Positions 52,124-54,037 of a stretch of 64,000 nucleotides of DNA are shown piece by piece; positions within the stretch are counted from its first letter, which is position 1, and each line of letters starts with the position of its first letter. The position numbers and the translations under genes are program-made. Source of the stretch: Candidatus Nitrosopumilus sediminis (lineage in GTDB: Archaea; Thermoproteota; Nitrososphaeria; Nitrososphaerales; Nitrosopumilaceae); contig NC_018656.1 of the NCBI RefSeq assembly GCF_000299395.1, positions 248,001 through 312,000 on the forward strand, written 5' to 3'. The notes beneath the pieces were generated by a model, which saw only the letters and a program-made list of their open reading frames with translations, was not told the origin of the DNA and searched no databases.

Positions 52124-53137
52124 TTAGGCTTTAGCGACTTTCATCAAATCTGCAATCTTGATGTTCATTCCAAATCTGTCTTCGTTCTTTTTCATGTATC
52201 TAAATATTGCAATAAAGTCTGGCAGCGCTTTTAAGAAACTGAAATCCTTGTGAATCTTTGCTCGAACAAAATTGAAAACTTTGGCATACACCTTGTAGTG
52301 CTCCTCCACTGCTTTCTCATATGCTTTGAAATCATGCATGTTCTCCAAGAATATATCAACACACTGCATTGATGGGATGATTCCCTCCCCTAGCAGAGCA
52401 TAGACTGTACCGATTGATTCCCCAACACCTACGACCTTGCCTGAATAGTATGGCTTGCATCTGTCCGGTGTTGCAAGTCTGATTGGCCTTCCCTTGGTTT
52501 TGAGAACCTTGCCACCGTGTTTCTTTAGGAAATCATCAGTTGCCTTGATGTGCTGTTTATTGTAATCACCTGCACCAATGTGTGCATATTTTTCACCCAG
52601 TGGGAAATACCAGAAATATCCTGACATTCCAGGAAATGGCTCTATGTAAAAGTCGTCATATGGAACCTTGTCTTCGTACTCTACCTTGTATTCGTATGTT
52701 GGTAAAAAGAAATCTTCTTTTAATTTTGGCAAGTACACTCTGTGAAATCCAGTACAGTCAACTATCATGTCGTACTCTTTTTCAAGCTCTTCAAGTTTTG
52801 GTGCTTCTCCGTAGATAACTTTGGAGTCTTTTATGAAATCCTTGATCAGTGCTAGCTTGTCATATGTGCATAACCCTTTGAGTCCTATGTCGAACTTTAC
52901 ATCGTTGTTCATCTTGACATGCATGTTTTTTCCATCATGAATTAGAAAATCATTAAAATCCCTGCCAGTCTTTTTGCAAAACTCTGTTAGGACTGGTTTG
53001 ATTGTTCCCCATGCGCAAATAGAATCGTGGTTCTCTTCTCGCATTCTCTCATATCCGGTAACGTCGTGTTCAGAGTCTTTTAGCCTGGCCATAAGATAAG
53101 AGCCTGCTACTCCCATGCCCATCACTGCAATCTTCAA
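52124..53137 (-). CDS. FAD-dependent oxidoreductase, geranylgeranyl reductase-like
   Basis: A 337-residue flavoprotein. N-terminal dinucleotide fold VMGMGVAGSYLMARLKDSEHDVTGYER (GxGxxG), a second strand MIVDCTGFHR and the C-terminal FAD strand GKVVGVGESIGTVYALLGEGIIPS. The arrangement is that of the geranylgeranyl reductase/digeranylgeranylglycerophospholipid reductase family, which saturates isoprenoid chains of archaeal lipids. Codons are noticeably richer in G/C at third positions than in genes before 52 kb. A TATA-like TATTTATTA about 26 nt upstream (53160-53169) fits a leaderless start. Confidence 0.8.
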   Translation of the reverse strand: MKIAVMGMGVAGSYLMARLKDSEHDVTGYERMREENHDSICAWGTIKPVLTEFCKKTGRDFNDFLIHDGKNMHVKMNNDVKFDIGLKGLCTYDKLALIKDFIKDSKVIYGEAPKLEELEKEYDMIVDCTGFHRVYLPKLKEDFFLPTYEYKVEYEDKVPYDDFYIEPFPGMSGYFWYFPLGEKYAHIGAGDYNKQHIKATDDFLKKHGGKVLKTKGRPIRLATPDRCKPYYSGKVVGVGESIGTVYALLGEGIIPSMQCVDIFLENMHDFKAYEKAVEEHYKVYAKVFNFVRAKIHKDFSFLKALPDFIAIFRYMKKNEDRFGMNIKIADLMKVAKA

Positions 53138-53193
53138 GATGTTTGCAGTCAGCCTGTGCCTAATAAATACACTATCTGATTTTGTTCAGGTAA

Positions 53194-53252
53194 ATTATTC
53201 CTAGTATGAAAAGATAGTGAGGATTAAATATGAAATTCACACTAGGAATAAT
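53194..53252. repeat. 17-bp inverted repeat flanking a TATA-like box
   Basis: ATTATTCCTAGTATGAA (53194-53210) and TTCACACTAGGAATAAT (53236-53252) are complementary except for one position; the outer 12 are perfect. The 25-nt loop contains ATTAAATAT at 53223-53231. The arrangement suits two regulator sites around a promoter, or a long hairpin. Confidence 0.7.
53223..53231 (+). promoter_or_regulatory. Candidate TATA box for the hairpin-array RNA
   Basis: ATTAAATAT. A start about 25-26 nt downstream would fall near 53253, about a dozen bases before the first module of the array. Inferred from spacing only. Confidence 0.4.
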
Positions 53253-53253
53253 G

Positions 53254-53390
53254 TGAAAAGGTGAGTCTGTCGTCTGAGAACAATCGTTTCAGGCCTTAAG
53301 ACAAGTCGCTGTCATCAGAAAACCTGCGGTTTCTGATCTTAAGCTAGGAGCTGTCATCGGCGCTTTTTCGGCGCTGATCTTAAGCTCAAT
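53254..53390 (+). ncRNA. Candidate structured RNA: three 42-nt hairpin modules
   Basis: Modules at 53265-53302, 53308-53344 and 53348-53387. Each has an outer stem (GTCT/AGAC; GCT/AGC; GAGCT/AGCTC), an identical internal loop with GTC on the 5' side (53269, 53311, 53353, exactly 42 apart) and CTTA on the 3' side, then an inner stem (GTCTGA/TCAGGC; ATCAGAAA/TTTCTGAT; ATCGGCGC/GCGCTGAT). Stems vary while pairing is kept. Two wobble pairs are G-U only if the + strand is transcribed. The stretch is GC-richer than its surroundings. No reading frame explains it; family unknown to me. Confidence 0.65.
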
Positions 53391-53434
53391 TGCCTTTTCA
53401 TTTACATTAAATTTAGGTAATTTTTGCTGTTGTC

Positions 53435-54037
53435 ATGGACGTCTTCGAAGCTATAGAGACTCGCCGTGCAATCAAAAAATTTGACAGCACATATACAATG
53501 AGCAGTGATGATGTCCAGAAATTATTGAGCCATGTTATCTTGGCACCTACTAGCTACAACCAACAGAACTGGAGATTTGTCTATGCTACTGATCAGTCTG
53601 TAAAGGAAAAAATTTCAGTTGCAGCAAGAGGACAGGCCCAACCAAGAGACGGCTCTTTGGTTATAGTGCTGTGCGGTGATACAACTGCATGGAGAACTGA
53701 CCCGCTGCGTTACTGGAAGAATCATCCTGCAGAAAAACAAGAGACGGTAAAGGCCGCCCTTGAGAGAAAGTACAAAGATAATCCGCAGAACCAACGAGAT
53801 GAGGCAATCCGTTCTTGTGGGATGGCAGCTCAGACAATAATGCTTGCAGCAAGACAGATGGGACTGGACTCTTGTCCTATGGTTGGATTCGAGTACGATG
53901 AACTAGCTGATGTGATCAAACTTCCCGAGAGCCACGTAATAGTAATGATGGTAGTAGTTGGGAAAAGAGCAGAAGATGCAGCAGAACGTGGCGGCCAGTT
54001 GCCATTGAATCAGGTCGCATTTGAGAATCATTTTTAG
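53435..54037 (+). CDS. Nitroreductase family protein
   Basis: A 200-residue FMN-dependent oxidoreductase of the nitroreductase fold. ETRRAIKKFDSTYTMS with the phosphate-binding RR, LAPTSYNQQNWRFVYAT, AAQTIMLAARQMGLDSCPMVGFEYDELADVIKLPESHVIVMMVVVGKR are the family's conserved blocks. Physiological substrate unknown (quinones, flavins or nitro compounds). ATTAAATTT near 53406-53414, about 25 nt upstream, gives a leaderless ATG. The structured RNA candidate ends about 45 bp before it. Confidence 0.9.
   Translation: MDVFEAIETRRAIKKFDSTYTMSSDDVQKLLSHVILAPTSYNQQNWRFVYATDQSVKEKISVAARGQAQPRDGSLVIVLCGDTTAWRTDPLRYWKNHPAEKQETVKAALERKYKDNPQNQRDEAIRSCGMAAQTIMLAARQMGLDSCPMVGFEYDELADVIKLPESHVIVMMVVVGKRAEDAAERGGQLPLNQVAFENHF

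Follow-up and report, generated by a model that had tools for sequence, protein, structure and literature searches.

Three hairpins of 42 nt, each with a GTC element opposite CTTA, stand in tandem at positions 53264-53387 (+) of a 64,000-nt stretch of the Candidatus Nitrosopumilus sediminis genome (NC_018656.1; hereafter the window, with an offset of 248000 on the contig, C1). Do these hairpins form a genuine RNA, does this RNA belong to the adjacent gene or to a gene of its own, and what could its repeated loop be for? A sequence-only reading had drawn attention to the hairpins; it overlooked the helix that closes them into one structure, as well as the promoter boxes and isolated copies in other parts of the genome.

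Results

The modules start at window positions 53264, 53306 and 53348 (C1:301264, 301306 and 301348) and their GTC elements lie at 53269, 53311 and 53353, at a spacing of exactly 42 nt. Module 1 (53264..53303, +) is made of the outer stem GTCT/AGAC, the loop GTC / CTTA, the inner stem GTCTGA/TCAGGC and the apical part AAC-AATC-GTT. Module 2 (53306..53346, +) reads GCT-GTC-ATCAG...CTGAT-CTTA-AGC, and module 3 (53348..53387, +) GAGCT-GTC-ATC...GAT-CTTA-AGCTC. They score 44.0, 46.0 and 45.8 bits, respectively, with R2, a single-module covariance model built from 50 modules. The MFE structure of 53240-53410 (-58 kcal/mol) consists of exactly these three hairpins inside a closing helix; its z-score is -4.07, and an equally low energy was reached in 0 of 200 shuffles. 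The 5' half of this helix (AAAAGGT, 53256..53262, +) was placed from the MFE fold and end-pairing energies. The 3' half (GCCTTTTC, +), approximately at 53391..53398, is U-rich and is the probable 3' end. The RNA gene would then extend over ~145 nt, roughly 53253-53400. A strict scan of both strands of the window for (N)TC/CTTA hairpins, with an inner stem of at least 5 bp and an outer stem of at least 3 bp, returned exactly these three; a Markov sequence of the same length yields 0.22 per strand, and none of the other tetramers on the 3' side of the loop was found more than twice. Positions, fold and scan thus bear out the tandem arrangement first described from the sequence. The segment is also GC-rich and noncoding, as had been stated: its GC content is 49% versus 35% for the window, and none of the window's ORFs of 50 aa or more covers it.

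Significant DNA matches to the region were found in 70 of 95 congeneric genomes. In 34 aligned homologues the loops are near-invariant and the stems variable, and RNAalifold recovers the three hairpins from this alignment with double changes at 14 pairs. For the 3-module RNA, 51 double-change cells were observed versus 12.6 in shuffles, and the signal was lost when partner columns were slid; the earlier claim that the stems differ and still pair is therefore upheld. Stems lost without compensation, which that reading had named as a refutation, were looked for in the homologous regions, and the stems are kept. At the level of 50 modules the figures are 121 double-change cells versus 33, with 97% paired; as a pairing filter had been used to select these modules, from which R2 was built, the module-level covariation is biased upward. 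This filter affects neither the counts for the 3-module RNA nor the outer stems of the core-pattern hits described below. With 59 G·U cells against 7 A·C cells, the plus strand is the folded strand, as proposed. The ends of the RNA pair together and covary as well: their pairing energy is -8.6 kcal/mol, compared with -5.8 after exchange between species and -3.4 after shuffling.

Two details of the initial description hold only in part. The 42-nt spacing is exact here and specific to this genome, the modules of another one (G004) being spaced by 42 and 44 nt. In the supposedly invariant GTC/CTTA loop, the CTTA side and the UC are kept, but the G may be replaced by C, A or U. Because the first loop base is variable, the conserved loop is better written N-U-C / C-U-U-A, with a nearly invariant flanking U-A pair. 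In Rfam 15 no family scored above its gathering cut-off (only tRNAs did), in keeping with the earlier remark that no familiar RNA family has this exact tandem arrangement, and the sub-threshold hits over the RNA obtained with permissive thresholds are noise. No description of this hairpin family, nor of a small-RNA regulator of Nitrosopumilaceae, was found in the PMC papers searched. That the hairpins constitute a real structured RNA family can be held with high confidence.

Weaker matches of the 3-module model at other loci correspond to RNAs with one or two modules, so that forms with 1, 2 and 3 modules exist. R2 finds seven sites in this genome, namely the triple locus and four single hairpins at C1:1060637 (-), C1:1523816 (-), C1:1535898 (-) and C1:1499432 (+). 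Its E-values are rough, and R1 matches of ~30 bits were trusted only if R2 confirmed the module. Each of 24 near-complete Nitrosopumilus genomes, this one included, carries 1 to 14 module matches, and 16 near-complete genomes from other families of the order carry 0. Searching relatives with a covariance model, as had been suggested, showed that the module is present in 126 of the 185 genomes of the family and in 10 of its 20 genera. About a third of the family genomes are without a match at the cut-off used (E <=3e-4 with strict filters, incomplete assemblies included), and the RNA therefore looks dispensable in some lineages. As observations apart, three genomes (G071, G072 and G073) have 14-17 module matches each, a lineage-specific expansion, and at L111, L112, L113, L115, L116, L121 and L122 there is an RNA of another type, in which two NUC/CUUA modules stand on either side of a distinct middle domain, CTGAGACCAAAGTCGC...GCATTGGAATCAG. 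This RNA has a TATA-like box of its own, and its neighbour gene is shared in part.

The exact core pattern CTGTCACCAA-N8-16-TTGGTCTTAAG leaves out the outer stems and is thus a test independent of them. A scan of 84,980 genomes returned 79 stretches, all 79 of which score as full modules with R2, most with the same promoter boxes. All the checkable ones are Nitrosopumilales. Some labels deserve comment. L259 (JAJDDX010000191.1), filed under Phycisphaerae and the one record from outside the archaea, is Nitrosopumilus-like DNA, with about 80% identity to Nitrosopumilus loci and 82% to L281, and is probably a mis-binned contig. Among loci labelled Nitrososphaeraceae, L260 (JAICOU010000010.1) shares 93-95% identity with loci of Nitrosarchaeum, L248 (JAICHE010000019.1) matches Nitrosopumilus-like loci, and by these similarities both labels are doubtful. 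For L274, also labelled Nitrososphaeraceae, the match covers only about 140 bases, and for L258 a relative for comparison is absent.

Two syntenic single-hairpin sites recur across many species. The first (F0) is divergent to a cupredoxin-like gene and overlaps or abuts the end of a 136-aa ORF; the second (F7) lies ~50 nt upstream of a 127-aa gene. A few other sites are common to two or three species and the remainder are genome-specific. The cupredoxin-side single of L133, L138, L163 and L164 (near 1501-1541) differs in its upstream dyad, which reads TTGTCAATG...TGAACAA; the hairpin itself extends antisense as far as the end of the 136-aa ORF or into it.

A putative TATA-like box of the triple RNA, TTAAATATG, is located at 53224..53232 (+), ~27-30 nt upstream of the closing helix; its consensus in relatives is GGTTAAATATC. 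It is preceded by a putative upstream promoter element at 53203..53219 (+), conserved as TAGTA.GAAAA.GATAGTG. This element reads GTAGAAATTATCAGTA in the relatives L034/L035 and is also present at many single-copy RNA genes. A pattern combining it with the TATA box has one match in this genome, at one of the single-hairpin RNA genes, and the idea of a generic strong promoter was rejected on that account. Recognisable TATA-like boxes (CTAAATAC) were found for 57 of the 61 singles examined. In 31 of these 57 the first base of the box lies 33-34 nt ahead of the module, and the sequence of the spacer is little conserved. Downstream of the singles the consensus is CAATtt, with conservation fading beyond CAATT. 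RNA starts were placed with the TATA-to-start distance usual in archaea. A single RNA is then predicted to start near the base of an extended stem CAATTG...CAATT, and the entire transcript would form a single hairpin, U-rich at its end. The triple RNA has a like layout, with TTAAATATG at 53224, the closing helix from 53256 and the U-rich end near 53398.

On its left the RNA is flanked by a divergent FAD/GGR-like oxidoreductase gene (52124..53137, -), a constant neighbour of the 3-module RNA across Nitrosopumilus. A putative promoter of this gene, TATTTATTA preceded by CAGATAGTG, lies at 53160..53178 (-). Two further features of the intergenic region may be mentioned. A ~12-bp inverted repeat (ATTATTCCTAGT / ACTAGGAATAAT) brackets the RNA TATA box of this genome at 53195-53251 of the window and is not retained in relatives. 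The sequences CACTATCTG (53170-53178) and AAGATAGTG (53211-53219) adjoin the TATA boxes of the two divergent genes, oxidoreductase and RNA, and are perhaps one shared operator. On the other side, outside the RNA, is a nitroreductase-family gene (PF00881, Pfam; 53435..54037, +), with a putative TATA-like box of its own at 53407..53417 (+), between RNA and gene and 28 nt before the ATG. The downstream gene changes between genomes: nitroreductase, acetyltransferase-like protein, 142-aa protein and others were found. Because of the RNA's own TATA box at near-fixed spacing, the separate nitroreductase box and the changing downstream gene, the best reading is that these loci are predicted independent small RNA genes rather than leaders. 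By eye, neither an obvious RNA-binding protein or partner among the genes near several modules nor a transposase among the inspected neighbour proteins was noticed.

Discussion

We propose that Nitrosopumilaceae possess a multigene family of small structured RNAs, of which this region is one member. We infer that each RNA would be transcribed from its own TATA-box promoter, start near the base of its outermost helix and end in a U-rich stretch. The NUC/CUUA loop with its flanking U-A pair, perhaps together with the apical loop, would be the dock for one lineage-specific RNA-binding protein. A single-hairpin RNA would offer the protein one site. The triple RNA, with three sites on a single closed scaffold, could act as a multivalent (high-avidity) decoy or assembly platform that sets the level of free protein. 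For this explanation as a whole we estimate a probability of about 0.55. A docking site for a presumed protein is the probable function of the loop: a repeated invariant loop in variable stems is the expected look of a repeated docking site, and this reading gains strength from the recurrence of the module, as lone hairpins, at other loci of the genome. A decoy role in particular, by which the protein would be titrated, is a more tentative suggestion. Three points count against the overall explanation, namely that inspection of the gene neighbourhood did not find the binding protein, that many single positions are genome-specific, as a mobile or DNA-level element would show, and that roughly one family genome in three lacks a match at the cut-off applied.

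The closest architectural parallel is provided by the bacterial protein-sponge RNAs CsrB/RsmZ. They too repeat a short invariant element in hairpins with variable stems, and are stand-alone genes with several RNAs per genome. Their element, however, is a GGA apical loop, whereas here it is the internal loop NUC/CUUA, and GGA is absent from the alignments inspected. Unlike CsrB/RsmZ, the present RNAs are archaeal and most copies carry one site; the likeness is one of architecture, and a CsrA-type partner is not known here. Since the GGA apical motif is absent, these hairpin RNAs are Csr-like in architecture and not members of that type. Type III toxin-antitoxin RNAs (ToxI, CptI, TenpI) share the tandem repetition of an RNA fold of ~36-45 nt, but they are pseudoknots, whereas here there are hairpins and dispersed single copies. 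No conserved toxin gene (AbiQ/ToxN fold) is found directly downstream, where the genes vary. Lineage-specific ncRNAs without established function are also known from marine picoplankton: Yfr103 (290-328 nt), which is likewise multi-copy, and Tan1 (229 nt) belong to other lineages and are larger, and are set apart by their description (PMC5069720).

The main rival to the docking and decoy reading is a guide-type RNP, in which the hairpin would be a loading handle and the RNA an effector or guide whose apical loops or flanks read the targets, this recognition and not titration being what counts. An RNA of one to three hairpins, encoded at several loci of a genome, does resemble a set of guide RNAs, and the apical loops of the singles are fairly conserved, e.g. 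CAAC-UAAUC-GUUG. Archaeal H/ACA guide RNAs in particular are made of 1-3 tandem hairpins with an internal loop and have their own genes. Yet theirs is a variable guide pocket with complementarity to rRNA, whereas the loop described here is small and nearly invariant over 50 modules, that is, without guide-like variation. Inspection of the alignments gave no UGA/GA element in the module, such as the tandem G-A pairs of a kink-turn or K-loop for L7Ae would show, and the dispersed singles have no conserved ACA (ACA/ANA box) 3' of the hairpin. Moreover, the singles are almost all hairpin and a conserved tail is absent, conservation ending past CAATT. We regard a guide function as rather unlikely.

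That the hairpins are antisense or terminator-like elements with purely local roles is improbable. In several species the hairpin on the cupredoxin side does overlap the final 24 nt of an ORF, but an ORF of at least 100 aa is overlapped at only 7 of 75 sites, and neither termination nor antisense pairing would need an invariant loop. It is quite improbable that the module is a repeat that is mobile or acts at the DNA level (REP/BIME, IS200/IS605 end, attC-like), folding as single-stranded DNA. The dispersed copies, many of them genome-specific, and the module matches, which number as many as 17 in one genome, are what such a repeat could leave. Nevertheless, several positions, such as the cupredoxin-like locus and the F6/F7 locus, are conserved between species, and the length of the TATA-hairpin spacer is kept while its sequence is not, unlike copy-paste. 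The shared contiguous flanks expected of copied DNA are not seen, and the strong preference for G·U over A·C does not suit folded DNA. In viral contigs two similar core patterns gave 14 hits, about the chance number, of which 0 had the module, and viral spread was rejected. Finally, a cis-acting riboswitch-like leader of the nitroreductase gene, which does lie downstream of the RNA in many genomes, is most improbable and was rejected as the main reading, for another TATA box with leaderless spacing stands between RNA and gene, the RNA stays while the downstream gene varies, and the nearest downstream gene of the singles is on the opposite strand at 33 of 73 sites.

Conclusions

Nitrosopumilaceae are among the most abundant cells of the ocean and perform much of its nitrification. 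In these ammonia-oxidising marine archaea, a conserved and previously undescribed RNA family is well supported. Its invariant docking-like motif, the several genes per genome and the covariance model together offer a direct bait for the partner protein, and the model also provides a practical annotation of these RNAs in metatranscriptomes. It is possible, though still speculative, that the dispersed, individually promoted RNAs with one, two and three hairpins carry or titrate one NUC/CUUA-specific archaeal RNA-binding protein, as a new ribonucleoprotein system. If true, ammonia oxidisers would possess a global post-transcriptional regulator of Csr-like scope.
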